DNA of 64,000 bases, from the NCBI GenBank assembly GCA_029865385.1, contig JAOUGX010000005.1, forward strand, positions 1 through 64,000, given 5' to 3'. The position numbers and the translations under genes were made by a program. The DNA is from Gammaproteobacteria bacterium (GTDB lineage Bacteria > Pseudomonadota > Gammaproteobacteria > Steroidobacterales > Woeseiaceae). The stretch's first letter is position 1, and the number at the start of each line of letters is the position of its first letter. Shown here one piece after another: positions 48,058 to 64,000 of the stretch. The notes below the pieces were generated by a model. That model was not told the DNA's origin and did no database searches. It saw only the letters and a list, made by a program, of their open reading frames with translations.

Positions 48058-51000
48058 TTACGTTTTAGTGATATCGCTAGGGCGGATGCCGTAACGTGTT
48101 GAAAAACAACGGGCGAAATAGCCGGCAGTGGAAAAACCGCAATCCAGCGCTGCATTGGTGACGGTATCGCCCTCTTCAAGTTTCGCTTTTGCTTTCTGCA
48201 GGCGGAAATCGCGGAGATACATCGCCGGCGCGACATCCAGCAGCGCTTTCAGCTTGCGTTGCAACTGACGATGGCTCATGTGCATGGCATCGGCAAGATC
48301 GTTTGCATGGAATTCGGAATTGGCATAGCGCTCGTTGAGCACGCGGCCGAGCCTATCGAGAAAAGCCTGGTCGCGTTTCGTCAGCCCGGAAATTTCCGCT
48401 GCACCATGGCCGTCGCCTGCCAGCAGCTGTTGCCGTGCGCGTTCGGCACGCAACTGACACAACTCAAGGAGATTACGCAACCGGTAGCGAAGCTCGTCCG
48501 GAAGGAATGGTTTCGCGAGGTAGTCGTCCGCCCGTTCCCTCAGGCCTTTCAGGCGGCTTGCCTCGTCGCCACGCGCAGTCAGCATGACGATAGGCACGTG
48601 CGACGTGTGCTCGTCGCTTCTAAGGCGTTGCAACACCTCGAAACCGTCGAGGCCCGGCATCATCACATCGCAAATGACGGCGTCCGGAATTCGCTCGATT
48701 GCCTGAGCCAGCCCGGTCGTGCCGTCATGCGCCTCGATGCAGCGATAATCCTCTTGCAACAATTCGACGATGAAGAGCCGCATGTCGTCGTTGTCGTCGA
48801 TTATCAGGATTTCGGCAAGGTCTCTGTCAGTATCCGGCGTCGGCGTGTCCCTGAGAGACGGCCCCTGCATGTAGATTTCCGCATCGAGATCTGGCGGGAT
48901 GAGCGTCGAGGGTGTCGTCCCTGCTTGCGGCACTACTGATTTCAGCCTGACGGTGACGGTGGTGCCGGTACCGGGAATGCTGTCGATACCGATAATACCC
49001 TCGTGCGCGTCGATCAGTTCTTTGACCAGCGTAAGCCCGATGCCCGTGCCAGGACCGGTGGCAGGACCCCGTTCGAACAGGTTGAACACGCCACCCAGGT
49101 GTTTCGCAGCGATACCGACTCCGCTGTCCGCAACCCTCATAACGGCATCGCCGCCTTCGCGGGCAACCGAGACAGCTATGCTGCCACCGGCTTCCGTGTA
49201 CTTGAGCGCATTCGATACAAGATTCACCAGAATGGTCTGCAGCGCATCCGCATTACTTTCTACCCAGACGTCATCGACAACATCGAGCGTAATTTCAATG
49301 CCCTTCTGCGCCGCTGCCGAGTTGAATTCAGCTACGATAAGACGCGCCACGGGCGCGAGCGCGATCGGCAGTCGCTCGACGTGTTGCTGGCCTCCATGTC
49401 TCGCGAGAGTCAGCAACTGATCGACAAGGTGCAGCAAGCGCTGTCCGTTGCGTTTCGCGAGTGCCAGTGACCGCTTTGCTGCGTCGGGTATGGCTTCGCG
49501 CAGGCTTTCATCGATCGGGCCCAGGATCAGCGTGATCGGCGTGCGGAACTCGTGTGACAAACGCGCGAAGAATCGGCTCTTGCTCTCCAGTGCGTCTTCG
49601 AGGTGCGCCGCCTGCCGCTCGATTGTATCTTTCTGCGCAACGATCTTTGCCGTACGCTTTCGCACCTCGTCCGCAAGCTGCCGGGCGTGCACTCGCAAGA
49701 CGCGCAGTCGCCACTGGACGAACAGCAACAAGCTCATCGCGGTAATCAATGCGAGCAGCGACTTCGCCCACCAGGTCAGCCACCATGGCGGTGCAATATG
49801 AATGCCTATCGCGGCGTCATTGACTGACCACACGCCGTCACTGTTGGCCGCGCGGACGCGAAAAACATAATCGCCCGGATCGACGTTGGCATAGGAGGCA
49901 AATCGGCGACGAGCATCGGTCTCGGTCCAGCGATGGTCAAGTCCTTCAAGCAAGTAGGCATAGCGGTTGCGCTCCGGGCTGACAAAATGCAGCGCCGAAA
50001 ACTCGAAACCGATGAAGTTCTGGTCGTAGCGTAGCTCGAGAGATGTTGTTTCCGAGATCGGCTTTTTCAGGATCGACGCCGGATCGTTTCGCGAAAAAGC
50101 GACTGGCGAATTGAACAGGCTGAAGTTGGTGATGACGACCTCGGGCGGCAATGGGTTACCAACGAGATCGGATGGATCAAAACGCGTAATACCACCGACG
50201 CCGCCAAAATAGATCTGCCCGGCACGCGTCCGCAGCGCCGCGCCACCGTTGAATTCGTTAGCCTGCAATCCGTCTTTGTACTCGTAATGACGTCCTTCGC
50301 GTTGGTGCACATCGTAACGCATCAGGCCGCGATTGCTGCTGAGCCACAACACACCGCTTTGTTCCGGGACGACGGCATAAATGACGCCCGGAATCAGTCC
50401 CTCGGACGAGGTGAATCGCTCGAACTCCCCGGATTCCTCGTCGTAACGGGCGATACCGCCTCCGGTCGCAATCCATATGCCGCCGTCCAGGTCCTCGTTG
50501 ATGGCGCGAATATTGTTGTTATTGATCGTGTGACGATCGGTCGGGTCGTGCGCATGGCAACGAAAATTCTCGTCTTTGCGGGCAGCGACGCACAACCCCC
50601 GGCTCCAGGTGCCTGCCCAAAGCCGATCTTTACTGTCGTAGTAGAGCGCCGCGATATTGACGGGCCTTGTCAATTCGTCCCCGGCATTGAACAGCGCGAG
50701 GCGTCGGAACCCGGTGCCGCCGGCGGCCCGATGGACCAGCCCGCCGTCTACAAGGCCAGCGTAGAGGCCGCCTGCGCCGTCGCCGACAATTGCCGTGACA
50801 ATTGCGCCCGGCAACGCGCCGGGCGAGTCGTTTGGCATGAAGCGCTGAACGCTGGCGGTTGCCGTCTCAAAACGATTCAGCCCGCCGCCCCAGGTGCCGA
50901 CCCAGAGTACGCCACCGGGTTCGAGATACATGCCCCAGATGCGATCACTCGAAAGCGACGAAGGATCGGCGGGATCCGCGCGATGGTGAATAAACCGGCT

Positions 51001-52209
51001 GCTGTTCGGCGCCAAATAGCTGAGGCCACCGCCGCTGCTGCCAACCCATACGCCGTTATTCTCATCCTCTGCAAACTCAATGACCATATTGTCGCTGAGA
51101 CTGGAAGGATCGCCTGGCACGTGGCGAAAATGCGTAAAACTGGCAGCACCGGCGACCGACCTGCTGAGACCCGCTTCCAGCGAGCCGACCCACAACACGC
51201 CGGATTTGTCCTCCAGCAACGAGTACGCCGTACTCGTGGGCAACGAATACGGATCGCTTGTCGAATGAACCACGTCGACGATCGTTTCGCCATTGTCCGT
51301 CAGGACTTTCAGACCGCCGCCGATCAGGCCGACCCAGATGCGACTGGCAGAATCTTGCAGAATGCTGCGGATCGAATATCGGCTGCCGCGTTCGGTGGAC
51401 CGCACGGTAATACGGCCCAGCAAGGCTCCGTCCGGTGTAAAGCGTGAAATTACGCTGTTGCTGCCCGCCGCCCAGACTTGGCCGGACCGCAACACCTCGA
51501 TGGTACGAACGTCTTCGTCGAGCAGGCTTGCGTTATCCGCATCGAGCGGAATCAAAGTGCCGCCTTTGCTCAGATAGCGCCTCAGTCCCTGCGACGAGCC
51601 AACCCAAAGCTCATTACTTTGCACCTCTTTCAACACATTGATGCTTTGTTCACGCACGGTGGTCAGCGGTTCGAACGTGCCAAGGCCATTATCGAAAAGG
51701 AATATTCCCTGCAGATCGGTGCCTATCCAGAACTTGCCGTCGCTGGTCTCGCAGATCTCGTGCACGTCCAGTGAAGTGTCCGCCGATCCAGCGTCCCTGC
51801 GCGAGCCGGTTATGCGAAATCTCTCGAAGTCATTCGAGTCACGGTCATAGCGATGCACTGTACCGTCATTTGTGCCGACCCAGAGGATGCCTGCGCGGTC
51901 TTCGAATATCGTCGTTATGTTGTTGTTGGCAAGCGAACGCGGATCATCGGGATCGTAGCGCATGACGTCGAAGCGATATCCGTCATATCGATTCAGCCCG
52001 TCCTGAGTACCGACCCAGAGATAGCCGCGGCGGTCCTGCGCCAGGGCGTTGACAGAGCTTTGTGACAGGCCGTCATTGATGGTCAGGTGCTCGAACCGCA
52101 TCGATTCGAGTTGCGCCGAAACGCATGCTGGCCAAGCGAGGCAAAAGGACAAAAAGAGAGTGCGGACGACGACGTCCAGTCTGGTAACCGGCCGACCCTG
52201 GCATTGCAT
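48058..52209 (-). CDS. Hybrid two-component system protein (propeller sensor, kinase, receiver, AraC HTH)
   Basis: This single chain of 1383 residues senses, phosphorylates itself and binds DNA. In order: signal peptide (about 1-33), two seven-bladed regulator propellers (about 35-690; repeated LWVGTxDGLNRY motifs), Y_Y_Y domain (about 745-805), transmembrane helix (about 809-835), HisKA with phospho-His886 in LSHEFRTP, HATPase (about 950-1090; GTGIGLTLVKEL), receiver with phospho-Asp1181 in CDVMMPGLDG, and a C-terminal AraC-type HTH (about 1295-1383). This is the layout of HTCS regulators of glycan use in Bacteroides, and is less common in proteobacteria. Its target genes are unknown; neighbours are lipoproteins and exporters. 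Confidence 0.93.
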   Translation of the reverse strand: MQCQGRPVTRLDVVVRTLFLSFCLAWPACVSAQLESMRFEHLTINDGLSQSSVNALAQDRRGYLWVGTQDGLNRYDGYRFDVMRYDPDDPRSLANNNITTIFEDRAGILWVGTNDGTVHRYDRDSNDFERFRITGSRRDAGSADTSLDVHEICETSDGKFWIGTDLQGIFLFDNGLGTFEPLTTVREQSINVLKEVQSNELWVGSSQGLRRYLSKGGTLIPLDADNASLLDEDVRTIEVLRSGQVWAAGSNSVISRFTPDGALLGRITVRSTERGSRYSIRSILQDSASRIWVGLIGGGLKVLTDNGETIVDVVHSTSDPYSLPTSTAYSLLEDKSGVLWVGSLEAGLSRSVAGAASFTHFRHVPGDPSSLSDNMVIEFAEDENNGVWVGSSGGGLSYLAPNSSRFIHHRADPADPSSLSSDRIWGMYLEPGGVLWVGTWGGGLNRFETATASVQRFMPNDSPGALPGAIVTAIVGDGAGGLYAGLVDGGLVHRAAGGTGFRRLALFNAGDELTRPVNIAALYYDSKDRLWAGTWSRGLCVAARKDENFRCHAHDPTDRHTINNNNIRAINEDLDGGIWIATGGGIARYDEESGEFERFTSSEGLIPGVIYAVVPEQSGVLWLSSNRGLMRYDVHQREGRHYEYKDGLQANEFNGGAALRTRAGQIYFGGVGGITRFDPSDLVGNPLPPEVVITNFSLFNSPVAFSRNDPASILKKPISETTSLELRYDQNFIGFEFSALHFVSPERNRYAYLLEGLDHRWTETDARRRFASYANVDPGDYVFRVRAANSDGVWSVNDAAIGIHIAPPWWLTWWAKSLLALITAMSLLLFVQWRLRVLRVHARQLADEVRKRTAKIVAQKDTIERQAAHLEDALESKSRFFARLSHEFRTPITLILGPIDESLREAIPDAAKRSLALAKRNGQRLLHLVDQLLTLARHGGQQHVERLPIALAPVARLIVAEFNSAAAQKGIEITLDVVDDVWVESNADALQTILVNLVSNALKYTEAGGSIAVSVAREGGDAVMRVADSGVGIAAKHLGGVFNLFERGPATGPGTGIGLTLVKELIDAHEGIIGIDSIPGTGTTVTVRLKSVVPQAGTTPSTLIPPDLDAEIYMQGPSLRDTPTPDTDRDLAEILIIDDNDDMRLFIVELLQEDYRCIEAHDGTTGLAQAIERIPDAVICDVMMPGLDGFEVLQRLRSDEHTSHVPIVMLTARGDEASRLKGLRERADDYLAKPFLPDELRYRLRNLLELCQLRAERARQQLLAGDGHGAAEISGLTKRDQAFLDRLGRVLNERYANSEFHANDLADAMHMSHRQLQRKLKALLDVAPAMYLRDFRLQKAKAKLEEGDTVTNAALDCGFSTAGYFARCFSTRYGIRPSDITKT

Positions 52210-52267
52210 GGCGCCATTATCTCAGAACAGCGAGCGGGCGATAGGGTCCTTCTTGTACGAGACCAGG

Positions 52268-52873
52268 TCAGGAGCCGCGTTTTGACAGGGCGAGGCCCAC
52301 GCTCGCACCAAACAGGAACACGGCCGTCAGCCTGTTGCGCAGGTGCCCGAATCTTGCAAGGCTACGACGCGCCGAAGTCGCGAACACCGCCCAAAGCAGG
52401 TCGCCAACCAGGATAACGGCGAGATAGATTCCGGCAACCAGGAGCAGCTGTAAGGTCGCGTCTCCGGTGGCACTGACGAATTGCGGCAGGAATGCGGCAT
52501 TGAACAGCAACACCTTCGGATTGACGATGGCGAGCAACAAGCCGTGTCGAAAGACCCTGGGCCGACGCTCGGGTTGCACGCTGTGCAGATCTGGCGCCGG
52601 CCGACGCCATGTTGTTATCGCCAGTGCAAGCAGATAACAGACACCGAGCCACTTGATCCACAACAGCGCCGATGCTGCTGCGTGAATAACAGCAGACAAA
52701 CCGCCAGTTACCAAAACCAATTGCACAGCGATGCCGATCGTAGTGCCGATAACCGTTCTTACGCCGGCGCGCAAACCGTGCTGGAGTGTATTGGCGACGA
52801 TCAGCGCGACATTCGGTCCGGGTATGAGAACCAGAACCGTTGTTGCTGCAATAAGGGCCAGGATGTTTTCCAT
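52268..52873 (-). CDS. LysE family amino-acid exporter
   Basis: This 201-residue inner-membrane protein has about six helices and starts with the LysE/RhtB signature PGPNVALIVANTLQHGLRAGV. The ending and the NPKVLLFNAAFLPQFV segment also fit. Such proteins export amino acids or homoserine lactones; the substrate is unknown. It lies 13 bases after the rhomboid stop, in a same-strand run. Confidence 0.93.
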   Translation of the reverse strand: MENILALIAATTVLVLIPGPNVALIVANTLQHGLRAGVRTVIGTTIGIAVQLVLVTGGLSAVIHAAASALLWIKWLGVCYLLALAITTWRRPAPDLHSVQPERRPRVFRHGLLLAIVNPKVLLFNAAFLPQFVSATGDATLQLLLVAGIYLAVILVGDLLWAVFATSARRSLARFGHLRNRLTAVFLFGASVGLALSKRGS

Positions 52874-52886
52874 TGCGTTCGTTTCG

Positions 52887-53561
52887 CTAGTGCGGACGAC
52901 GCGGTCGGCGCCAGTGTTGAATCAGCAGGAAACCGAACAACATGCCGCCGAGGTGAGCAAAGTTTGCCACTCCCGGCGCGCGTCCGCTGACGCCGAGATA
53001 CAGCTCGAATACGCCCGCCAGGATGACCAGGTACTTGGCTTTCATCGGAATCGGAGGAATCAGCAACATGACCATGCGATTGGGGAAGGCCATGCCGAAT
53101 GCCAGCAAAATACCGAACACGCCGCCGGACGCGCCGACCGTGTTGTACTGTCCGTTCTGCAAATACGCGACGAGCAACTGCACGAGCCCTGCCCCGACGA
53201 CGCAAGTCAGGTAGTAAGTAATGAACCGGCGCGGCCCCATCAGTATCTCGATCTCGCGACCGAACATCCACAGCATCAACATGTTGAAGACAACGTGGCC
53301 TACACTGCCATGCAAAAATCCGTAAGTAACAATCTGCCACGGATAGAACGAGCCACGAACGGCTTCGATAGGCCACAGCGAGAAAAAGTACTCGAGATAG
53401 TAGGGTGGAAACTGCTGCAGCGCGAACAGCAGCCCGTTCGCGACAAGCAGAAAGAAAATGACGTTGGGAATGGTACCGCTGTCCGCCGGTCGCCGCTGAT
53501 ATCTGATCTGATTCAAGTCGAATGTCTTTTTATGTGTATATACAAGGAACAGACTCCGCAT
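52887..53561 (-). CDS. Rhomboid family intramembrane serine protease
   Basis: This 224-residue, six-helix membrane protein has the serine motif GASGGVFG and catalytic His in FAHLGGMLFGF, plus FLHGSVGHVVFNMLMLW with the usual HxxxxHxxxN pattern. The Ser-His dyad cuts membrane helices within the bilayer. The start is uncertain; ATG at 53561 fits but no strong ribosome site is visible. It follows the DUF2207 gene by about 46 bases on the same strand. Confidence 0.9.
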   Translation of the reverse strand: MRSLFLVYTHKKTFDLNQIRYQRRPADSGTIPNVIFFLLVANGLLFALQQFPPYYLEYFFSLWPIEAVRGSFYPWQIVTYGFLHGSVGHVVFNMLMLWMFGREIEILMGPRRFITYYLTCVVGAGLVQLLVAYLQNGQYNTVGASGGVFGILLAFGMAFPNRMVMLLIPPIPMKAKYLVILAGVFELYLGVSGRAPGVANFAHLGGMLFGFLLIQHWRRPRRPH

Positions 53562-53607
53562 CGGCAGGACCGTTCCCGTGAGTCCCGCCGCAAAGAGGTT
53601 CGGATGA

Positions 53608-55308
53608 CTACCAGCCGCCGCCTCCGCCACCGCCCCCTCCGCCGCCGGACGAGCCGCCACCGCCACCGCCCGAAGAAGAACCCGGCGGGCTGACCGACGA
53701 GCTGATCGCCGTATCGAGGCCTCCGGACAGCCGCGACATATTGGATCCGAGGTTCATGTTGTTCCAACTACCGCTGTACCAGGCCGGCTGGTAGCTGCTG
53801 TTGTCGGGGCCGCGCAGACTGGCGAAAACTTCCGTGAATTTTTCAGCCCATTTTTGCTCGACGCCCATTGCCAGCGCGAACGGCAAGAAACGCTCGAATA
53901 GCTCCGGGGTTTTCTCCGGCGGGTTTCGCAGGTTCATTTCGTCCTTCTCCGCGATCTCCAGGTAATCACGAAACCCCAGAATTTCGTCCAGAAGTTTTCG
54001 TCCCAGCCCGGTCGGCCGCTTCATGATGGCCGCAAACACGAAGAACGTGATGATCATGAGAACGATGACGCCGATAACGAATGGCGTAGGCCCTAGGCCG
54101 GTATTCAGGGCGACTATCGACGAGATTACAGCGATGATGATCCCCGGGATGCTCAGCAGGCCGTTGGTCTTGAAGTAGCGTCCCGCGTAGTCGCGAACCA
54201 GGGCTTGCTTGTGTGCCGAGCGGGCCCCGCCGATTCTCTCGTGATTCTTGTCATCCAGCAGTAACGAGCTGCTGCTGGCGAACAGCTTCCCGTACAAGGC
54301 CTGCTCTCCGGCGGCCAGCGGCGGCGCTTTGCTTCCCGGGTCGGTTTTCACGAGCGTATGTTTCTTTTTTGACTTCTCGATCCGCAGGTAGCCCTTGACC
54401 GCCAGATTCAGCACCGCCGCGGTCATGACCTTGCTGTCGTAGTACATCTGCTGGATATAACGCAGAGAAGCCGGAGAAAAGTTTTCTGGCGGTTGATAGC
54501 GCGTGACAATCAGTCCCTCTTCCGGATCGCGGCCGTAGGCGCGCCATACCGGAATGAAATACGACAGCAATGCGATGAATCCGGCGATGGCGACGATCAG
54601 ATTGAGGTTGTCTTTCAGCAGCCAGGCGATGCGTTGCGTCCTGTCAGGCTCATCGACAAAGCCCTTCGGCCAGCCGACCACGATCGTCAGGCCCTCATGA
54701 GGATACAAAGTGCGATCCGCAGCGAACACGACCCGGGCAAGATCTTCACGCCGCACCGTGTAATCCTTGCCTTTGGCGCCCATCGGGCCGGTGTAGGCGT
54801 CGACACTGTGTATCTGCGGTTCTCCGGAAAACTCCAGCGTGACGGTTGCGCTTGCCTTGTCGATCGGGAAAGCCCACTCGTTTCCGGTTGCGTTCCAGTA
54901 AAGCTCATCGTGGCTTTCGAAAAAGCCCAACATACGATTGGCGCGATAACGATAGGTGTAGGTGTGAACGCCGTTCTCCAGGTAGCGATCCGAACTGCCA
55001 AAATAGGTGCGCAAGCCATTGCTCAGTTTCTCCGAGTGAAATGCTTCGGCTGCGTCGTTTCGCAAAACGGAAAGCGGTTCGTAGGCAACGATATGGCTGT
55101 TGCCATAGTTATCCTGGTACTCGGTCGGGAAGTCTCTGTATATGCCACGGCGTATTCTCGCGCCCTCGGAGCGCACCGTGATTGTTTCGGTTACGTCAAT
55201 CCAGCCGTCCTGCTGAACCCTGACATCACTGTGAAATTCGAGAATGCGCTCATCCGCCGCCGACAGCAGCGGAATCGATGCCAGTGCCAGCAGCAGAAAT
55301 ATTTTCAT
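53608..55308 (-). CDS. DUF2207 membrane protein
   Basis: This 566-residue protein has a signal peptide ([20 protein letters not shown]), a large periplasmic beta-domain (about 20-225; [10 protein letters not shown] is a family hallmark), a transmembrane helix near 232-256, a cytoplasmic segment, a helical hairpin around 385-430, and a Gly/Ser tail ending GGGGGGGW. It is nearly always next to lemA; the pair has no established function. Here its ATG overlaps the lemA stop by four bases. The Gly-rich end is low-complexity and may mediate assembly. Confidence 0.87.
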
Positions 55309-55862
55309 TCGATGCTGCCGAGTTTGACCAGTGGTACGTTCGCGGCGTCATCGGAACTTTTCTGGAAGTAGTCCTTTTGCTTGAAGCCGAACAAGCTGGC
55401 AATCATGTTATTTGGCACGGTCTCGATTCGGGTATTCAATTCGCGCACCGACCCGTTGTAGTAGCGGCGCGCGAACTGCAGATAGTCTTCCGTTTCGACC
55501 AGTTCTTTCTGCAATTGGAGGAAATTTTCGTTTGCCTTGAGGTCCGGGTAGGCCTCGGCAATCGCCAGCAGGCGCTTGATACCGCTGCCGAGTTCTTCTT
55601 CGGTCTTGCCAAGTTCGGCGATGCTGCTGCTATGCATCGCCTGTTTCCGAAGCGTCGTTACAGCTTCGATCGTGGCTCTTTCGTAAGCTGCGTACTGCTC
55701 GACGGCTTTTACCAGTTGCGGTACCAGGTCGTGGCGCCGCTGCAGTTGCACATCGATATCGCTCCATGCCGCACTCGTGCGATTTCTGTCGCGAACCAGA
55801 CGATTGTAAAGAATCGCCACCAACACGGCGATCAGGGCAATGGTGAGCAGCAGGATGAACAT
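55305..55862 (-). CDS. LemA family protein
   Basis: This 185-residue protein has one N-terminal membrane helix ([19 protein letters not shown]) and a helical cytoplasmic or periplasmic bundle with the LemA signature [20 protein letters not shown] and [17 protein letters not shown]. Function is unknown. It starts at the ATG that shares its A with the MOSC stop (TGATG) and ends overlapping the DUF2207 gene, so MOSC-lemA-DUF2207 are coupled. Longer frames upstream run through the MOSC gene and are not likely. Confidence 0.93.
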
Positions 55863-56305
55863 CAGCGGTTTCCGGTATACAAAACGGTATCGCCGACGGA
55901 TACTGGACCGCCACGCAGCACCCGGCAACAGACGCCGCCGCGCCAATCCGGTTTCAAGGCCGTGGTCAGACCAGCGCACTGCTCATCCATGCGGAAGCAG
56001 GGATCCGTCTCCCCGGTCACCTGCAGCCGGACCTCGCCAATGCTTAACTCTCCGCCGATCTCTTTCGGCAATTCAACGCCTTCCACCAGCAGGTTGGCTC
56101 GACGCACGGTCCAGGGAACGGTCTTGCCGAGCTCTTTACAAACCTGCCGCCAGACATCGGCGGAGATTACCGTAACCTGGCGTTTGCCGGGCTTGCCGCG
56201 ATAATCGAGCGCGACACCAGTCTCGTCCGTGATTTCAGCTTCTTGCAGCGTTTGCATCTCGCCGCGCTTCTTGTCGCGCCGCGCGATTCCGACCAACCGA
56301 CCCAT
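55862..56305 (-). CDS. MOSC domain protein
   Basis: This 147-residue single MOSC domain (molybdenum cofactor sulfurase C-terminal type) has MGRLVGIARRDKKRGEM, the LDYRGKPGKRQVTVIS stretch and a Cys in ETDPCFRMDEQC that would bind metal or sulfur carrier. MOSC proteins deliver sulfur or reduce N-hydroxylated substrates; this one's partner is unknown. ATG 56305 was chosen because it gives the family start; the frame is open for 15 residues more. It is the first gene of the operon that leads to lemA. Confidence 0.88.
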   Translation of the reverse strand: MGRLVGIARRDKKRGEMQTLQEAEITDETGVALDYRGKPGKRQVTVISADVWRQVCKELGKTVPWTVRRANLLVEGVELPKEIGGELSIGEVRLQVTGETDPCFRMDEQCAGLTTALKPDWRGGVCCRVLRGGPVSVGDTVLYTGNR

Positions 56306-56370
56306 GACAGCCCCCCCAAAATCGAATTTGGGAACATTGTATCGAATCATTGCCGACAGCGATCGATGAT

Positions 56371-56436
56371 GTCGCCTGCGGTGCAGGCTCCTACGAGTCT
56401 TCTATTGCCGTTGTAGGAGCCTGCATTGCAGGCGAC
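56371..56436. repeat. REPIN-like palindrome, copy 2
   Basis: Two arms (56371-56394 and 56413-56436) pair except for two central bases in the hairpin tip and are separated by 18 bases, the same spacer length as copy 1 at 41349-41414. It lies between the divergent MOSC gene start and the DUF3570 gene stop. Confidence 0.85.
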
Positions 56437-56450
56437 CTGCGAACGCCAAA

Positions 56451-57587
56451 TCAGTACCAGAAAGAAAAGAAAAGCTGGAAGACGTTGGCTTTCAGGGAAT
56501 AGAGGGGCTCTTCACCGACCGGTGCGGTGCTGGTCAGGTCGCGGAACTCATGGTAATCGACCATCAGGTGGTCTAGCGACGCCGTTACCGACCCTTTCTC
56601 GATGAAATTCCAGCCACGACTCAGGAACTCGTAGCTCGCCGAAAATCGCAGGGTGTGGCTGGTGAGGGGACTGAGCTCCTTGTCGCGACCACGGAAGTTG
56701 GTCGCTTCCGATCGGGAGAAAAGATCCCTGAAAAAATGTGCCCCGGTCTGATCGTGGTAACGGTATTTGCCGGTGAATGTCCACGGGCCCATCGGATGCA
56801 CATAAGTAACTGCTGCGGTATGCGATGTGATGTCCCAGGTGTCGCCAAAAAAACGGTACTCACCCTGTAGCGCAGCACGCCATGGCATGTAATAACGCGC
56901 GCGAAGACCGACAGCGCTGGTTGTGCGTGTATGCGGATAAAGCTCGGGTTCGTACGCGTAACCGGCGGGACTGCCGGAATCGGCGTATCGCACAGACCGG
57001 TACGGATTGTTCAGAAAGCCTTCGTCAGTGATGACCTCGAAATTGACGCTGGTGATCAGGTTGCGCGTCATGATCTGCGTCAAACTCATGCCGTAATGCT
57101 GACGCGTGTTATCGCGGGAAAAAGCCGGATCGTCGGAACGACCGACGATATCGTCGCCGAAAGCGTAACTCAGCGTCAGCGTCGTCAGGTCGCCGAACAT
57201 GTCCTGGCTCACGCTCAAATTGTAGGTCGTCGCATCGAAATCCGACTCCACGCTACTGGTATAGCCGGCTGACATTGTCGTGTTGCCGCGAAGGTAGTCC
57301 ATCGACAGCGAGTACTGAGTGCGCTCTTCGGTATACGGGCTGGCCGTGGTGATGACATCAATCGATGCGGAGCTGACCATATCGACGTAGTAGTTGGCCG
57401 CAAACGAGACGCTCTTGCCGACCTGCTTTCGTACCAATACGGACGGACCGTCAATAGTGACTCCACCGCCGGTGTATTGATGGTAGAGAATATCGGTGCG
57501 GTCCTCGGGCAATACGCCGGACACGGCCGAGCGATTGATCGCGAAGATCAGCAGCAGTACGGAATAGACGATACGTTGCAGTTTCAT
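56451..57587 (-). CDS. DUF3570 outer-membrane barrel protein
   Basis: This 378-residue protein has a signal peptide (MKLQRIVYSVLLLIFAINRSAVSG) and then repeated amphipathic strands with aromatic girdles (e.g. YSLSMDYLRGNTTMSAGY, RYYMPWRAALQGEYRFFG). It ends in FQLFFSFWY, with a terminal aromatic residue as expected for BAM-inserted barrels. It matches the DUF3570 family, known to neighbour DUF4266; function unknown. It starts 23 bases after the DUF4266 stop and is last in a five-gene envelope operon. Confidence 0.88.
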   Translation of the reverse strand: MKLQRIVYSVLLLIFAINRSAVSGVLPEDRTDILYHQYTGGGVTIDGPSVLVRKQVGKSVSFAANYYVDMVSSASIDVITTASPYTEERTQYSLSMDYLRGNTTMSAGYTSSVESDFDATTYNLSVSQDMFGDLTTLTLSYAFGDDIVGRSDDPAFSRDNTRQHYGMSLTQIMTRNLITSVNFEVITDEGFLNNPYRSVRYADSGSPAGYAYEPELYPHTRTTSAVGLRARYYMPWRAALQGEYRFFGDTWDITSHTAAVTYVHPMGPWTFTGKYRYHDQTGAHFFRDLFSRSEATNFRGRDKELSPLTSHTLRFSASYEFLSRGWNFIEKGSVTASLDHLMVDYHEFRDLTSTAPVGEEPLYSLKANVFQLFFSFWY

Positions 57588-57610
57588 GTCCTGTTTCGAT
57601 AGGAAGTTTG

Positions 57611-57853
57611 CTAGTTGCAACCGCAGCCGCCGCCAGCGCTGCCTTCGGCGCCTCGCGCGCCTTCGCGTGCCTCGTAAACGTGCTGAATGTAGGAGGTCGA
57701 TACCGGGTCAGCGTCGAGGAACATGATCGGATCCGCAAGGCGGTCACGCTCATATGGCTTTACCCAGGGTTCAATGCCCCCGCAGGCCGACAGCCCCAGC
57801 GTCAGCAGGACGGCGGCGCCAGTGCGCAAAATCGGATTTTTTCTCATATTCAT
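57611..57853 (-). CDS. DUF4266 Cys-rich lipoprotein
   Basis: This 80-residue lipoprotein has a signal LTLGLSACGG (lipid Cys24). The mature part reads WVKPYERDRLADPIM, the DUF4266 hallmark, and ends GGGCGCN, where two cysteines could bind metal, form a disulfide or hold a cofactor. The family's role is unknown; it almost always pairs with DUF3570 genes, as here. Confidence 0.9.
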   Translation of the reverse strand: MNMRKNPILRTGAAVLLTLGLSACGGIEPWVKPYERDRLADPIMFLDADPVSTSYIQHVYEAREGARGAEGSAGGGCGCN

Positions 57854-57900
57854 ACTCCAAGCTTATCCCGGGCGTTTGCACCGGAACCGTGAACCCTGCC

Positions 57901-58587
57901 TCAGAAGAACATGGTCACGCCCACGTGAGCCTCCAGGTTGTGCGTGGTCTTTTCCTCGCCGAGCAGGTCGATGTCGTAGAGGTGATCCCTGAAATCGAAA
58001 TGAAAGGCGACCGAATCGTTGAATAGAAAGCGATAGCCGACACCGAAATTGACGGTAAACCGGTCGTCGCCGGCAAAACGTGTCGAACCCAGCCCGCCGA
58101 TCAGATACAGGGCGTTGTTGTAGGCACGACCCTCGCCGATGAATACCTCACCTGGAAGGATGTTGTAGCCGAGGTTCAGGTTGTAATACGTGTACTGGCG
58201 GTCCGAGTCGGACAGCAAAGGCGCACCGCCGCTCAGGATTTCGAAACTGGTCAGCCCTGCTTTCGTCTGTCCGGCCGTGCCTTCAACGAAGAACCCTTCG
58301 GTAACGTGGTAGGCAATCCGGGCTCCGTAGACGAAATCGGAGCCAAAGTCCTCGATACTCAGAACACCGACAAACGCACCGATCTCGAAGTCCTCGGTAT
58401 CGATCTTGGGCTCCTTGACCTTGCGACGCTCTACCTCGGGCTCGATCACCTGCCCCTGTGGCAGCTCCGCGGGCGGAGGTGCCGATTTGTCGCCGCGGCC
58501 GAACAGGCTCTTTGTAGCAGCACAGCCCGACAGCGTAAGCGCTATCATTGGCAGCACTAGAAAAAGAACGCGAAACCGGCTTTCCAT
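57901..58587 (-). CDS. Outer-membrane barrel lipoprotein
   Basis: This 228-residue protein has a lipoprotein signal (LTLSGC, lipid Cys22), a charged spacer (about 30-65) and about eight beta-strands with a GARIAYHVTEGFFVEG repeat style and a final VGVTMFF, a terminal-Phe barrel signature. It resembles the small 'outer membrane beta-barrel domain' proteins seen in myxobacteria and some gammaproteobacteria. Its ATG lies 31 bases inside the preceding SH3 gene, so translation is coupled. Confidence 0.8.
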   Translation of the reverse strand: MESRFRVLFLVLPMIALTLSGCAATKSLFGRGDKSAPPPAELPQGQVIEPEVERRKVKEPKIDTEDFEIGAFVGVLSIEDFGSDFVYGARIAYHVTEGFFVEGTAGQTKAGLTSFEILSGGAPLLSDSDRQYTYYNLNLGYNILPGEVFIGEGRAYNNALYLIGGLGSTRFAGDDRFTVNFGVGYRFLFNDSVAFHFDFRDHLYDIDLLGEEKTTHNLEAHVGVTMFF

Positions 58588-59345
58588 TCTTCTACTTCCT
58601 CGTTGTCGTCACGGCTCGTGAATACCACGTAGCTTTTGTACTCGGCTCTCAGGACGAAGCGCCGCGTCGCATATACGCGGAAGCCGGCTCCCACATGAGC
58701 AATCTGATCCGTTCGGTCCTCGCCCTGAATGATGGTCGACTTCGGGCTGGTGTGAATCACACCGGTTCCCAGAGTGAAAAACGGCGAAATCCGCCAGTCA
58801 GGCCAAGTCTCGTGAACCACGTTAACACTGCCCATCCAGCCGTTCGAAAAATTTCCCAAAATCTGTGAACCCCATACCTCTATCGAGACATTGGGGTTGA
58901 GCGAGTACCCGCCGTATACGGAAATAATGTTCGCGCCGCCGAAATCACCGGCGACGAGACCGGCCTCCCATTTTGCGTCGGTGAAGTCCTGTTGATTGGC
59001 CTGCGCGAAGCGTGTGGTTTCGCCGTCGGGCTGCAGCGTTTGTTCCATCTGTGCCCTGTCGACCCAGCCTTCCTTGCCGTCCGGGCCGCGGACCTTGTAC
59101 CAGTCCGTGCGCTGCGCCAAAACCTGGACGGTTTCGCCACGATCAATGATGTGAAATATCGGGTAGCCGCGACCCGGTCCGGTACGCATTTCCAGATAGG
59201 GATCGGCGACCGCAACGGTCTTGTACTCGTCGGCCTGAACAACTCCTGCGCTGATTGCCTGGGTCAGTACGACCAGGAGAGTCAGAAATGCAGATTTAAT
59301 TGATCGGGACGTCGAAAGGATTGTTGTAATATTGCGCTCCGACAT
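58557..59345 (-). CDS. SH3-domain protein with barrel-like C-terminal part
   Basis: This 262-residue protein has a signal peptide (SAFLTLLVVLTQAISAGVVQA), a bacterial SH3 domain (about 44-104, with YLEMRTGPGRGYPI, WYKVRGPDGKEGWV) and a C-terminal beta-rich part that ends KAGFAFFF, an outer-membrane barrel signature. SH3b domains bind peptidoglycan or peptides, so the protein might link murein and outer membrane. The ATG at 59345 has GGA eight bases upstream and is inside the preceding gene; ATG 59360 is possible too. The start is the least certain in this operon. Confidence 0.78.
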   Translation of the reverse strand: MSERNITTILSTSRSIKSAFLTLLVVLTQAISAGVVQADEYKTVAVADPYLEMRTGPGRGYPIFHIIDRGETVQVLAQRTDWYKVRGPDGKEGWVDRAQMEQTLQPDGETTRFAQANQQDFTDAKWEAGLVAGDFGGANIISVYGGYSLNPNVSIEVWGSQILGNFSNGWMGSVNVVHETWPDWRISPFFTLGTGVIHTSPKSTIIQGEDRTDQIAHVGAGFRVYATRRFVLRAEYKSYVVFTSRDDNEEVEEWKAGFAFFF

Positions 59346-62004
59346 CCAACCATTCCGCAATCAAGCGTTTCTCCGCGTCACTAAGATAACCATCGTGACT
59401 TTGACCCGCATTGAAGCGATTGAAGAATCGCCCCGATGCATTAGCGCCCGCTGTCGACATCGACGGATTTACGGTAACGGTGACCAGAATCGGATCGCCA
59501 TTGGCATCCACACCGTTTTGCACCAACCTGTCCTGCAGCGCGCCCATATTAAGCTCTTGTTCGTTATCGGGAAACAGCAATTCCCGATAAGAATTGAAGT
59601 GATCCGCCTCATCCGGCGAAATTCCATCCGTAAGATCCAGCTGACTCGCCGGCACCTGTGCCATGCCGGCGGCATCCAGCGGCGTATGACAGTTGGTGCA
59701 GTTGTTCGTAACCGGCAATCCGGTAACCGGGTCCAATACCGGCATTCCGGTCACCGGATCCAGTACCGTTCGATCTGCTCCCCACAACGGATGTATATGC
59801 ATCTCGTAGTTGATGACGATTCGGCAGTTCGACGACCACGCCTGCGTAATGCAGTTAAGCGACGTGGGTGGCGGTGTCGTCAGATCCACGTAGGAATAGC
59901 GGAATGAAGTGTCTTTCAGACGGCCGGCAGCGACTTCCTCTGTCCAGACGTCATCGTATTCGATGTCCATCGACGGCTCGATGGAGGAGCACTGGTTGAC
60001 GTTATCGGCACAGGTGATGCGAGCACGCACCTCAGCCATCGTCTCGCCGATCTCGCCCACAAACCACATCGGCTCGGTATTTGGAAACTCGACGCCGGCA
60101 GTCGGTGCGCCAGCGTAGGCCGAATCGAATGCATCGTAACGGCCGTGGGAAACGCCACTCTGTGCCACGTGACAGCCGTTGCACTCGAGCAACTGTCCGG
60201 GGCGCAATTGAATCCAGTTCTGATGCCGGGCAGTGATACGCCGCCCGTTGCCATCGAGAACGCTGACCCACAGCGCGACGTTGGCCGGGACTTTCATCAT
60301 GACCGAACCGTCCGGCTCGATCATCGAATAGCCGACGATCTCTTTCATGCCCTGGGCCAGATCGCGGCCGAACGCCGTATTGTCCAGGTCGAGCAGGTCC
60401 TCGTCGGGAAGCGACACGGCCTTTTCGACCCGCAGGAAACGTGCCGGCCGCTGCGCAGCGGTCGTCTGGGCCGGGTCGGCCATCGTCGGAATGTCGACAA
60501 TTGCTCCGCCGTCAAAATCGTACACGCTGCGAATGCTCAGAACGGCCGCGGCTTCCGCTGCCAGGTTCTGATCGGCGTCAAAGCGATTCTCGGTGTCGAG
60601 AATGACAGGAGGCGCCGGACGCGGATCGGCCGAAACGACTTCGGTGTACATGAAACCGACTTCGGGCGGCACGATGGGCAATTGCGTGTTGTCACGCGGG
60701 TCGTAAATCCAGATGCCGTAAGTCGGATCCGCTTCTTCGAGGAGCGGGTTTGCAAGGTTCGTAGCCGTGCACGGATAGTAAACTGCGGGCACCGGCGGCG
60801 CGTTCGGGTCGACGATGTCGGTCAAACTGCACTGCGTCCAGCTGACCATCATTCGGCCCGTGCCATCCTGTATCGGATAAACGGAGCTGTAACGACCACC
60901 CGGGGATGGCACACCAGGGACGGTCGACACGTTGACGATAGTCGCACGCTGCTGCGCCGGACCCGTCATGCCGGGATTGTCTTTGGTCGGCTGGGTGTTT
61001 TCCAGATACACCGGCGTGTCAATGACCATGATGTCGCCACCGCCGCCGGTATCGGTGAATGGCCTTACCAGGGCCATGATGCGGCCGTCTTCGAGTTCGC
61101 GTGGTTGCACGAATTGAATAACCTGGCCGTTAGTGCCGGTATTGTGACTGTTCTGACCGTACAGCATCTCCATCTGAGAACCGTCCGGATTCATGCGGTA
61201 GATGTTTACAGCGTTGTTCCTGGCGGCGTGATCCCAACGGCTGAAGACCACCTGGCCATTCGACAGGACCGACGCATCGAAGTCGTGCGACTGGTTGTAG
61301 GAAACCTGTTCAATGCTCGTGCCGTCCGAATTCATTACGTGCAGCACAAAGGCCGGCTCGTTCTGATCTTCATCCTCGGCGGGAAACTGCGGCTTGCCCT
61401 CGTCCAGCAATACGGCGTTCGAACGAAGCTGCCGCGTTGATGAAAAAATGATACGGCCGTCTGGAAGGTACTTAGGCCCGATGTCGTGGCCGATTTCGGC
61501 AGTCAGATCCGACGCAATGACACGCCGCAACACGCCGGTTTCGAAGCTATATTCCCAGATGTTCCAGGTCGGCTGGCCGGGATCGTCCAGTGCAAGGCCC
61601 AGGTCGACCGGGCCGCGCATCGCAAACAGCAGCGTACTGCCATCATAGGCGATTTCCAGATCACGGACGGCTCCAAGTCCCTGGGTGATGGCTTCCGTAA
61701 TATTGACATCAAGCGCGCTCGGCGAGGCGCGATCACGGAAATAGACGTCTGCACCGAAGTTGAAAGTGACGAGTTCGCGAACGTCGGTTTGCATGAACTC
61801 ACCCTGATCGTCTACAGGCAGCGGTGCCTTTACATAGGCGATCGGGAAATCGATGATGACCGGGTCCGGCCGCTGGCCATTGCCGAGCTGCACGCCTTCT
61901 CCGCTTTCACAACCGGCAAACAGAAATAACGCAGCAATGAGTGCAAATATTCGCACGCCGCGTTGTTTCGATTCATCCATGATATTTTGCGATTGCATAG
62001 CCAT
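59296..62004 (-). CDS. HzsA-like diheme propeller lipoprotein
   Basis: This 902-residue protein has a lipoprotein signal (ALFLFAGC, lipid Cys32), a beta-propeller with WD40-like/TolB-like repeats (about 110-390, e.g. GHDIGPKYLPDGRIIFSSTR), a middle domain with a first c-type heme site CNGCH at 608-612, and a C-terminal domain with a second heme site CTNCH at 769-773. The arrangement recalls the alpha subunit of hydrazine synthase, but hydrazine chemistry is not implied. A 9-residue tandem repeat LDPVTGMPV / LDPVTGLPV sits just before the second heme. ATG 62004 has GAGG eight bases upstream; an ATG at 62052 is also in frame. It is first in the five-gene envelope operon. Confidence 0.82.
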   Translation of the reverse strand: MAMQSQNIMDESKQRGVRIFALIAALFLFAGCESGEGVQLGNGQRPDPVIIDFPIAYVKAPLPVDDQGEFMQTDVRELVTFNFGADVYFRDRASPSALDVNITEAITQGLGAVRDLEIAYDGSTLLFAMRGPVDLGLALDDPGQPTWNIWEYSFETGVLRRVIASDLTAEIGHDIGPKYLPDGRIIFSSTRQLRSNAVLLDEGKPQFPAEDEDQNEPAFVLHVMNSDGTSIEQVSYNQSHDFDASVLSNGQVVFSRWDHAARNNAVNIYRMNPDGSQMEMLYGQNSHNTGTNGQVIQFVQPRELEDGRIMALVRPFTDTGGGGDIMVIDTPVYLENTQPTKDNPGMTGPAQQRATIVNVSTVPGVPSPGGRYSSVYPIQDGTGRMMVSWTQCSLTDIVDPNAPPVPAVYYPCTATNLANPLLEEADPTYGIWIYDPRDNTQLPIVPPEVGFMYTEVVSADPRPAPPVILDTENRFDADQNLAAEAAAVLSIRSVYDFDGGAIVDIPTMADPAQTTAAQRPARFLRVEKAVSLPDEDLLDLDNTAFGRDLAQGMKEIVGYSMIEPDGSVMMKVPANVALWVSVLDGNGRRITARHQNWIQLRPGQLLECNGCHVAQSGVSHGRYDAFDSAYAGAPTAGVEFPNTEPMWFVGEIGETMAEVRARITCADNVNQCSSIEPSMDIEYDDVWTEEVAAGRLKDTSFRYSYVDLTTPPPTSLNCITQAWSSNCRIVINYEMHIHPLWGADRTVLDPVTGMPVLDPVTGLPVTNNCTNCHTPLDAAGMAQVPASQLDLTDGISPDEADHFNSYRELLFPDNEQELNMGALQDRLVQNGVDANGDPILVTVTVNPSMSTAGANASGRFFNRFNAGQSHDGYLSDAEKRLIAEWLDVGAQYYNNPFDVPIN

Positions 62005-62763
62005 TTCCATTACCTCGATACTCAAATGTGAGTGCGGATCAGTTCTCCGCAATCATCGAGCCAGCCTGAATCTCGCCGCGGCTTCCCTAACCGCTTTGAT
62101 TTCAGGAATCGACGCGCACTACTCCGACATTTAAGTAATGTGTAATAGTGGACGCCGGGCACCCGACATACCGTTAACGCGATCACAAAAGGCCCGGCTT
62201 CCCGACACTTACGATTGGCAGGCCGTGACCAGCGTCACATCGCGTAAGTCGCGCAGCGTGTCGAACACTTACTATTCGCCGACGATGGCTGCTAATAGGG
62301 CTGGAGTATAGGAAACCGAAACGATCAATGTAATGTCTCGAAAGTACGACAGTACGCAAAGTTAAGTTGTGAATTTGCATATTGCCGCTATGCGAGATGC
62401 TGCTCCTTTCGTTTCTATTTCTGAACCTATTCCTCTACACGTATGACTTCGAGAAAAGGTTCCCTGACATTTTTTCTGCCGACAGCATCTGCAGAGAACG
62501 TTGTTGCGATTTCGTTTCGATGACGCAACAAAATTATCGAGGCGTTCCTTCAGCAGCTTCCGAAGATGTTGCAACACTGTCACGAGTTGACGTTTCTGTC
62601 TGCTATCGGCGACAGCGTCGCGACCCTTAATAATCAGCCGTTTGTGAATTGGGGTGTTCGCCTGTGTGCGGTTCGTACGACAGTCACTTGACATATAGTG
62701 ATACACGACGGCTCGACGAATGAAACTGTATATGATTGTTTCTAAACAAGTAATTGGACGTTT

Positions 62764-62778
62764 TCGGACAACATCCGA
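62764..62778. promoter_or_regulatory. Palindrome upstream of the sigma-54 element
   Basis: TCGGA-CAACA-TCCGA is a five-base inverted repeat that ends four bases before the -24 element; it might be a binding site for an activator or repressor. Confidence 0.3.
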
Positions 62779-62782
62779 ATAC

Positions 62783-62798
62783 TGGCACAGCACTTGCT
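62783..62798 (+). promoter_or_regulatory. Sigma-54 (-24/-12) promoter
   Basis: TGGCAC-AGCAC-TTGCT matches the RpoN consensus TGGCAC-N5-TTGC(A/T) exactly, with the GG and GC pairs ten bases apart. Transcription would start near 62810 and run into the unknown secreted-protein gene, leaving a leader of about 400 bases. It needs an activator ATPase of the NtrC type, which is not in the window. Confidence 0.7.
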
Positions 62799-63217
62799 TC
62801 ATACAGTGCAGATCGAGGGCAACGTTTGCCGCGAGCTTTGGACGAAACCAGGACTGTGAATGCATTCACGGTGATTTTTTCAAGACTCAGGCAAGATCTT
62901 TGATGTAAGTCCACCTGTCGACTGACAGATGTTCAAGGAAGAAACACGAACAACAGGGACTTCTGAAAAGGGCAAGGTCTCACCGCTTATCTAAGGTGCG
63001 ACCACGCAAAGCAACCGATCGTATGGCCGGCACATGATGTCGGTCAGATAGACAGCGGGGCTACCAGGAGAAAGGTGGACACGTCAGTAAGCTGACATTC
63101 AATCCTTCCCCCTAATAGTCCTCGTGATGACAAGTCGGCCCTTCGCTACTCGGGTTCGAGAACGTCTTCCGCTGTTTCGACATTGTTTTGATCGTATTGG
63201 TCATGAGCAGGAACGCT

Positions 63218-64000
63218 ATGAAATACATAACGTGGACAAGTCAGGAAATCATCAACGGCCAGAGCTGCGTCAATTGGCTCAGGGCGATGCCCCGGGTGTT
63301 GGTGATCGGATTGCTCTGTACGAGCGTCGCCACTACTGCATTTGCGGGCCCGCGCGAGCAGGCTAAACAAATGCATGACCGGCTGGCTGGCGTACCGCCG
63401 ACCGAAGCGGTGCTTCAGTCGATGGAGGCAGATATCGATCCGGGTCAGAACAACAACCCGCTTGCCGCTGCCAATACGGCAATGAGTAATCCCAACTTTT
63501 ACAACGTGACATTGAAGAATTTCGTTGCGCCGTGGACCAATCGCGACAGCAACGTTTTCGTGCCGCTGAACGATTACATCGCCACGGTGGTCGGCATGAT
63601 TCGTGACGATGTCCCGTTCAATACGCTGCTGTCGGGCGACATCCTGTATGTCGCGAGCGGCGTTCCGGGACTGCCGGCCTACTCGAATACGAACAACAAT
63701 CATTACGCACAGTTCGAAGCAGACGGTCACGACATGATGGCGCGATTGACGCAGACGACACAGTCTTCCGTTACCGGCCTGCCGAGTACGGCAACGGCCG
63801 GCATCATGACGACGCGCGCTGCGGCTGAGGCCTTCTTTATCGCGGGTACAAACCGCGCGATGTTCCGCTTCACGATGCTGAATCACATGTGTAATGACAT
63901 GGAGCAGGTGCACTACCTCGCGCTTCCGCCGGACCGCATCCGCCAGGACGTCAGCCGCAGCCCGGGTGGCGACAGCCGGCTGTTCCTGACGAACTGCGTC
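63218..64000 (+). CDS. Secreted protein of unknown function, 5' part only
   Basis: This frame stays open from an ATG at 63218 to the window end (261 codons, no stop), so the gene continues. It has a long n-region and a signal peptide (RVLVIGLLCTSVATTAFA, cut before GPREQ), then LAGVPPTEAVLQSMEADI and a mixed helical mature part, e.g. NDYIATVVGMIRDDVPFN and GTNRAMFRFTMLNHMCNDMEQ. I do not recognise the family. An AGGA lies upstream of the ATG. Its position divergent from the heme operon and downstream of a sigma-54 promoter suggests that it belongs to the same system, which is inference. Confidence 0.7.
   Translation, partial: MKYITWTSQEIINGQSCVNWLRAMPRVLVIGLLCTSVATTAFAGPREQAKQMHDRLAGVPPTEAVLQSMEADIDPGQNNNPLAAANTAMSNPNFYNVTLKNFVAPWTNRDSNVFVPLNDYIATVVGMIRDDVPFNTLLSGDILYVASGVPGLPAYSNTNNNHYAQFEADGHDMMARLTQTTQSSVTGLPSTATAGIMTTRAAAEAFFIAGTNRAMFRFTMLNHMCNDMEQVHYLALPPDRIRQDVSRSPGGDSRLFLTNCV

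Follow-up and report, generated by a model that had tools for sequence, protein, structure and literature searches.

A conserved five-gene operon around an HzsA-like diheme lipoprotein in Woeseiaceae and relatives, and its genetic link to a TolQ/TolR-type motor block

Layout of the five-gene operon

We analysed a 64,000-nt stretch of DNA (the window) from a gammaproteobacterium of the family Woeseiaceae (assembly GCA_029865385.1, contig JAOUGX010000005.1, positions 1 to 64,000 of the forward strand). Near its end lies a minus-strand operon that encodes an HzsA-like diheme lipoprotein, two small outer-membrane barrels, a DUF4266 lipoprotein and a DUF3570 barrel. This operon, probably redox-active, is genetically united with a second block, located on another contig of the window genome, that encodes a proton-driven motor of the TolQ/TolR type. 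The five products were named by Pfam and NCBIfam profile searches with the cut-offs of these libraries.

59296..62004, minus strand: HzsA-like diheme lipoprotein, 902 aa, with a propeller, an HZS_alpha middle domain and a C-terminal cytochrome domain (PF18582 and predicted model)
58557..59345 (open reading frame from 59360), minus strand: SH3 domain and small outer-membrane barrel (SH3_3, E 1.2e-12)
57901..58587, minus strand: small outer-membrane barrel lipoprotein, OMP_myx_plus (TIGR04565, 164.5 bits, cut-off 60)
57611..57853, minus strand: DUF4266 lipoprotein with C-terminal GGGCGCN (PF14086, E 2.2e-22, 80.1 bits, cut-off 27)
56451..57587, minus strand: DUF3570 outer-membrane barrel of the HZS-locus subfamily (PF12094, E 1.8e-34, 119.7 bits, cut-off 25)
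60169..60183, minus strand: haem motif I, CNGCH, HzsA-like residues 608-612
59686..59700, minus strand: haem motif II, CTNCH, HzsA-like residues 769-773
57339..57383, minus strand: tandem flavin-acceptor-like motif DMVSSAS-I-DVITTAS, DUF3570 residues 69-83, located in the loop that joins strands 3 and 4

Taken 5′ to 3′, the genes overlap by 50 and 31 nt and are then separated by gaps of 47 and 23 nt, which bears out an earlier sequence-only reading of a five-gene, one-strand envelope operon. That reading had also pointed to aromatic ends on three products, and the termini are FFF, FF and FWY. The same feature recurred in the named loci, the best 80 of 566 relatives, which come from Woeseia, Woeseiaceae, Steroidobacteraceae and other mostly gammaproteobacterial assemblies: a final F or Y was found in 72/75 SH3 barrels, 70/72 barrel lipoproteins and 66/68 DUF3570 barrels. 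The description of DUF4266 as Cys-tailed held for the CxC pair and not for the final residue, which is Asn.

The HzsA-like diheme lipoprotein

The 902-aa product matched HZS_alpha with 50.1 bits (E 4e-13, cut-off 26.6), and its PD40 match of 17.2 bits stayed below the cut-off of 20.9. It carries a lipobox at Cys32 and CxxCH motifs at residues 608 and 769. The predicted model aligned over near full length with the alpha subunit of hydrazine synthase (5c2v_A; Z 34.0, rmsd 3.9, 592 aligned), while the next-best matches, to TolB, covered only the propeller (Z about 26). We compared the protein with its relatives in two alignments (A1 with 20 rows and A3 with 29, the window protein in both; 49 rows), where the lipobox Cys and the Cys and His residues of both haem sites did not vary. 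His594, Trp597, His612 and Met656 were likewise invariant, as was His870, which lines up with a His of HzsA. Two CxxCH motifs were counted in 73 of the 80 named loci, three in one and one in six; the second haem site read CxxCH in 74, CxxxxCH in five and neither in L177. We also observed a long subtype, with a third CxxCH near the C-terminus in both aligned examples (L081 and L086); six loci of this subtype have an extra small cytochrome gene between the HzsA-like and SH3 genes.

As described in the sections of PMC12607021 on the catalytic haem of hydrazine synthase, Tyr591 is the proximal ligand, four residues past the motif His, and the motif His binds zinc. None of the 49 rows has a Tyr at this position, and 33 have Ser. 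The score against the NCBIfam hydrazine synthase equivalog was 59.9 bits, with a cut-off of 800. No HzsB passed the cut-off in the window genome, and no search for HzsC was made; the HzsB profile matches in this genome are unspecific, because the E. coli, B. subtilis and M. acetivorans controls match too. The HzsA-like protein is not a hydrazine synthase, and hydrazine chemistry was rejected on the missing Tyr ligand and the equivalog score. The sequence-only reading had allowed for oxidation of a small molecule at the cell surface; oxidation of the hydrazine synthase kind is disfavoured, because no row of the alignments has the Tyr ligand of the catalytic haem. HZS_alpha matches in Woeseiaceae and Steroidobacteraceae are no evidence of anammox.

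The DUF3570 barrel, DUF4266 and a probable flavin link

The DUF3570 model had a pLDDT of 91.4 and 16 long strands (counted manually from the listed elements). It resembled solved outer-membrane barrels such as PelB (Z 20.0) and CymA (Z 18.4), general barrel matches that name no function. Its longest loops come after odd-numbered strands, and the motif loop (74-84) comes after strand 3. Both chain ends of such barrels usually lie in the periplasm. By this rule, and because the motif loop follows an odd strand, the flavin-acceptor-like motif of the model would either face the outside or fold into the barrel lumen.

The available portion of Meheust et al. (2021, PMC8238504) describes flavinylation clusters in which DUF3570 and DUF4266 occur together with ApbE and thioredoxin. 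The Chlorobium DUF3570 protein is flavinylated there, and loss of flavinylation needs replacement of both [S/T]GA[S/T] serines. In the window the two genes adjoin, each with a product over its cut-off. Since both families belong to this published ApbE system, flavin is a likely cofactor of the window barrel.

The window protein has two tandem D-x-x-[ST]-x-A-S motifs in which the Gly is replaced. Among 123 HZS-type DUF3570 sequences (109 distinct; truncated L171 and L174 excluded), all 123 contain D-x-x-[ST]-x-A-[ST] and 102 the strict tandem, whereas in 24,600 shuffled controls the tandem arose 3 times and a single motif 1349 times. The canonical DUF3570 proteins (n = 21) all have Dxx[ST]G[AGS][ST], 13 of them in the strict form and none in tandem. 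In a quick tree, 57 HZS-type and 21 canonical rows fell on two sides of one branch with support 100. Asp69, Ala74, Ser75, Asp77 and Ser83 did not vary over the 47 rows of the DUF3570 alignment (A2); the Gly position is Ser, Gly or once Ala in the first motif and more variable in the second. According to the relevant passages of a review (PMC12052999), a Gly-to-Ala change keeps about 50% flavinylation and serine is accepted. ApbE adjoins loci whose DUF3570 still reads SSAS, which suggests that flavinylation may have outlasted the loss of the motif Gly.

The CxC tail, GGGCGCN in the window, was present in 68/68 named loci with the DUF4266 gene found, the profile having been built from CxC-tailed sequences and thus favouring that tail. 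ApbE occurred in all 66 genomes with an HZS locus that were tested (the 60 fetched genomes except G062, plus seven), a count that is uninformative alone. In 18 of the 66 it was no more than 5 kb from the locus, where by our own estimate (one to four copies in a genome of roughly 4 Mb) about one case would be expected by chance; among the named loci, ApbE was near in 9/57. A thioredoxin (TlpA) gene was found within the cluster in 23/57 named loci. The window genome also has a canonical TlpA-DUF4266-DUF3570-ApbE cluster on another contig (L036, G000:C126, 4362-7331), with the DUF3570 motif DTLTGAT. Compared with the ApbE proteins encoded within HZS loci of other families, the ApbE of contig C101, where the motor block lies, shows about 50% identity and that of the canonical C126 cluster about 30%.

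Conservation of the operon and of a divergent cytochrome trio

PF18582 was found in 147/246 genomes of the same order, as a single copy in 145, so the system is not a rare oddity. At the order level we read 61 loci, namely the window and 60 of the other 146 HZS genomes, picked blind to outcome for family spread and contig extent. The SH3 gene was present in 60, the barrel lipoprotein in 59, and DUF4266 and DUF3570 in 57 each; all five genes occurred in 57/61. Three of the four loci that lack DUF4266 and DUF3570 (L056, L082 and L097) stop at a contig end. The fourth, L096 (G062:C27:39500-53800), encodes a divergent 1096-aa HZS_alpha protein with no SH3, barrel, DUF4266 or DUF3570 gene in the stretch and an ApbE-cluster gene immediately upstream; it may possibly represent another HzsA-flavin pairing. 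In a sample of 398 genomes from the phylum, HZS_alpha was found in 14 and DUF4266 in 30. DUF4266 lay 2.4-3.9 kb downstream of HZS on the same strand in 10 of the 14, the window genome included.

Upstream of the operon, three genes are transcribed divergently:

63188..64000, running past the window end to C167:64447, plus strand: one-haem protein gene, 419 aa, first of three
C167:64451-66979, same contig beyond the window: CytLamG, second divergent gene, for a two-haem protein with a Laminin_G_3 domain
C167:67011-68633, same contig beyond the window: TAT-signal DUF1501-like gene, third divergent gene

The window-genome locus thus holds five CxxCH motifs, two in the HzsA-like protein, one in the one-haem protein and two in CytLamG. 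Neither Pfam nor NCBIfam named the one-haem protein or the third product, which we take to be DUF1501-like from its TAT-signal start, a label without library support. The one-haem protein matched PSCyt3 and then PSD2 weakly, with 12-17 bits against cut-offs of 25.8-27.

The downstream order, HzsA followed by the four partners, was kept in 56 of the 57 named loci that have 5.2 kb beyond HzsA; in the sole exception, L163, the SH3 gene was not recognised. Upstream, all three divergent genes were found in 55 of the 56 named loci with 7 kb on that side. No trio was recognised in the fetched stretches of the long-subtype loci (L081-L087 and L099), six of which carry another small cytochrome gene instead. 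An arrangement kept this often downstream is far beyond chance, and the two counts together rule out a chance neighbourhood. The sequence-only reading would have had to be dropped had the genes not clustered in other genomes, which these counts exclude. Its broader claim also stood: a propeller diheme lipoprotein and barrels, as the profiles confirm, share a conserved envelope operon unlike the Mtr/Pcc systems.

Paired small barrels and the motor block on contig C101

In the SH3 protein, SH3_3 was over cut-off and OMP_b-brl below, and TIGR04565 reached 33.4 bits (cut-off 60). The two small barrels are related to each other (hhalign probability 93%, E 2.4e-7), and in 6/6 loci tested the second barrel was above the TIGR04565 cut-off and the SH3 barrel below it. 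In M. xanthus, according to the excerpted account of PMC4488436, the TPR protein GltC is bound by GltB and GltA, two small outer-membrane barrels that are paralogues. By architecture, the SH3 barrel and the barrel lipoprotein resemble such a GltA/GltB-like paralogue pair.

Through the third ApbE of the window genome we reached a second locus, on contig C101. It encodes ApbE, a TlpA-like protein, F178, TPR proteins of 624 and 939 aa, a small TPR protein, F155, a MotA/TolQ/ExbB protein, two ExbD/TolR proteins and a TonB-like protein with an AgmX/PglI tail. Two of its families are placed as follows:

L201 8188-8832: F178
L201 14091-14558: F155, 155 aa

The TolQ-like protein matched PF01618 with 108.1 bits and the two TolR-like proteins matched PF02472 with 65.1 and 62.2 bits, all over the cut-offs; the AgmX/PglI tail domain scored 63.2 bits (cut-off 40). 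The TPR proteins carry TPR domains, and the 624-aa one (TPR-624) is near GltC (673 aa) in size. F178 and F155 had no Pfam or NCBIfam match; both are conserved and look secreted.

We used F178 as a marker of the block. It was present in 165 of the 246 order genomes and in 146 of the 147 HZS genomes, the lone exception (G192) being 88% complete; 80 genomes have neither. For the 135 HZS genomes with a listed F178 position, the marker lies on the HZS contig in at least 50 and no more than 21 kb from HZS in at least 47. The block adjoins the operon in many relatives, and in loci of other families an ApbE-TlpA-F178-TPR block follows DUF3570 on the same strand. We read 27 motor loci, seven from the window family, with the block in a separate place, and 20 selected for F178 near HZS. 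In the latter the block came after DUF3570 in seven and after the DUF1501-like gene in 11, with neither recognised in two. F178 and TPR-624 were found in all 27, TolQ in 24, and ExbD and AgmX in 21 each; the six stretches without AgmX stop inside the block.

Other genes near the two loci

Downstream of the operon are a LemA gene (PF04011, 55305-55979) and a gene for a 566-aa protein (53608-55308); the two are also found behind the operon of several relatives. The ApbE gene of the second locus, on C101, is divergent from a LemA-like gene and a gene for a probable M48 peptidase (L201 5564-6214 and 3573-5510, both read from sequence), so LemA-type genes flank both halves. A 1383-aa hybrid two-component regulator (48058-52209), with a propeller sensor, kinase, receiver and AraC-type domain by its sequence, is encoded near the operon and might control it. 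No tRNA was found in positions 50000-64000. In one portion of the divergent region (L037 1800-3300), scans for promoters and terminators returned 3 and 2 hits, near the levels of 1.7 and 1.5 in shuffled sequence.

A possible proton-driven redox machine

We propose, with an even chance of being right, that the five genes supply the outer-membrane and redox half of a single machine. This machine would span the envelope, be driven by protons and move electrons via thiols, covalent flavin and haems. The whole would be an envelope machine of roughly 20 genes, conserved in Woeseia- and Steroidobacter-type bacteria. Its other half would be the C101 block: in the inner membrane a proton-driven TolQ/TolR/TolR motor with a TonB-like, AgmX-tailed arm, in the periplasm a TPR scaffold, and in addition TlpA and, in some genomes, ApbE. 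ApbE would attach FMN to two acceptor serines of the DUF3570 loop, and TlpA and the CxC tail of DUF4266 would pass electrons between the periplasmic thiol pool and the DUF3570 flavin. The HzsA-like lipoprotein and the divergent cytochromes may link this chain to a substrate at the outer membrane, delivering electrons to it or taking them from it. The platform there would consist of the two small barrels, which may anchor the motor scaffold as GltA and GltB do in myxobacteria, and the DUF3570 barrel. The motor could couple the proton-motive force to moving or presenting the substrate. We put this redox-motor mechanism at about one half; it draws on which genes are present and how they are arranged, on their linkage and their co-occurrence within a single taxonomic order, on haem and conserved acceptor-type motifs, and on the predicted barrel and HzsA folds.

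Three other explanations have to be set against this proposal. A porin-cytochrome conduit, in which the barrel and the HzsA-like cytochrome pass respiratory electrons to metals and the motor genes are mere neighbours, is in our view unlikely. The diheme lipoprotein does share an operon with a 16-strand barrel, and the five CxxCH motifs of the locus fit such a role, but among the five products CxxCH occurs only in the HzsA-like protein and no MtrA-like multihaem chain is present, on which ground we rejected a plain Mtr-type conduit for this operon. The presence of F178 in nearly all HZS genomes, often nearby, is also unexpected for a plain conduit. Moreover, mtrCAB occurs predominantly in sediment-derived Woeseiaceae, as stated in the pertinent part of PMC12175321, so some members of the family have separate genes for this task. 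A simple conduit is not the best description, because the operon belongs to a wider set of genes that includes a motor of the TolQR type and an AgmX-tailed TonB-like protein; of the extracellular electron transfer suggested by the sequence-only reading, a redox role probably stands.

We give a similarly low probability to a mechanical envelope machine (for gliding, adhesion, or polymer or outer-membrane transport), in which DUF3570 is an unflavinylated scaffold or channel and the haem proteins sense or maintain. The motor, the AgmX tail, the TPR proteins and the paired small barrels, all like Agl/Glt, speak for it, as does the loss of the first-motif Gly in most DUF3570 proteins. On the other hand, the acceptor Ser, Ala and Asp residues do not vary although the Gly drifts, ApbE is retained beside loci with the SSAS motif, the CxC tail of DUF4266 is kept, and 23 of the 57 named loci have the thioredoxin gene in the cluster. 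A nitrogen-compound enzyme that runs a hydrazine-synthase-like reaction at the surface is far less probable still. It has the near full-length fold match to 5c2v_A and a weak alignment of the second haem region in its favour; the absence of a Tyr591 equivalent, the low equivalog score and the lack of an HzsB over cut-off in the genome oppose it.

Several observations weigh against the proposed redox-motor machine. Linkage is no proof that the motor and redox parts touch, and we infer their contact. The C101 proteins scored below the Glt equivalog cut-offs (GltE 34.1 vs 225, GltG 38 vs 650, GltJ 35 vs 450), and the model of the HzsA-like protein had a middling mean pLDDT of 72. HZS was not matched in 19 of the 165 F178 genomes. 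Co-occurrence was counted within one order, so the genomes are not independent, and reduced genomes without both genes may inflate it. L096 pairs its divergent HZS protein with none of the four partners, and 4/14 HZS genomes of the phylum sample (G347, G399, G419 and G474) have no nearby partners, their HZS matches being weaker or several. The divergent trio was found in 41, 41 and 27 of the 61 order-level loci, for which stretches were shorter and clustering stricter. The window DUF3570 reads SSAS and TTAS and lacks the [S/T]GA[S/T] acceptor motif; strict DxxSGA[ST] occurred in just 18/123 HZS-type sequences and not in the window. Close ApbE genes are a minority in both sets of loci, and in the window lineage ApbE and TlpA are outside the operon, together on C101.

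The modules are each known already, and it is for their union in one locus that we found no precedent. No paper in the open-access literature searched (without supplementary files) links HzsA-like genes to DUF3570, DUF4266 or Glt. If true, the proposal would give the first case known to us of a TolQR-type motor and a flavin/haem outer-membrane system forming one machine, and it bears on the evolution of gliding and of hydrazine synthase.

Comparison with known systems

In Mtr/Pcc systems a multihaem cytochrome sits inside the barrel, whereas the five products here have two CxxCH motifs, both in the HzsA-like protein; mtr genes were not searched for elsewhere in the genome. With hydrazine synthase alpha (5c2v) the HzsA-like protein has in common the overall fold, the two haem sites and the alpha-II haem region; it differs in its lipoprotein signal, its invariant His594, the lack of a Tyr591 equivalent and the lack of an HzsB over cut-off. 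The divergent genes recall the planctomycete-type PSCyt3/PSD2 and LamG cytochromes as presented in part of PMC5615132, with a Laminin_G_3 cytochrome and a weak PSCyt3-PSD2 order, but here the trio is tied to the HZS operon and PSCyt3 and PSD2 stay under the cut-offs.

The DUF3570-DUF4266-thioredoxin-ApbE clusters, as far as they are set out in the excerpts of PMC8238504, share with our locus DUF3570, the CxC-tailed DUF4266 and two acceptor motifs; a thioredoxin-like protein and ApbE join the cluster in only some relatives. In contrast to these clusters, HZS-type DUF3570 is a separate subfamily with the motif Gly mostly replaced, and the HZS locus adds the HzsA-like protein, two small barrels, cytochromes and the motor.

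In the available text of Luciano et al. (2011, PMC3169522), the gammaproteobacterial AglRQS-Glt core is "of unknown function" and the myxobacterial gliding motor is proposed to derive from it. The same text reports GltA and GltB only from Myxococcales and Bdellovibrionales and mentions an extra core gene without myxobacterial homologues, which may be F178 or F155. The system described here is like that core and the M. xanthus gliding machine (PMC3169522 and PMC4488436, as excerpted) in its TolQ-like and two TolR-like proteins, its TonB-like protein with an AgmX/PglI tail, its periplasmic TPR and lipoprotein-like proteins, and its two paralogous small barrels in tandem. These resemblances to Glt proteins are of architecture, no M. 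xanthus sequence having entered the comparison. What sets our system apart from AglRQS-Glt, on the same excerpts, is the linkage to flavin and haem genes, scores below the Glt equivalog cut-offs and the extra families F178 and F155. A concrete set of partners is thereby assigned to a motor complex like the gammaproteobacterial one whose function that study left open, and its job becomes testable by deleting a few genes. A bolder and rather doubtful extension is that the gammaproteobacterial AglRQS-Glt core is itself a proton-driven outer-membrane redox machine with a flavin barrel and an HZS-alpha-type diheme lipoprotein, and that gliding arose by swapping this redox head for adhesins.

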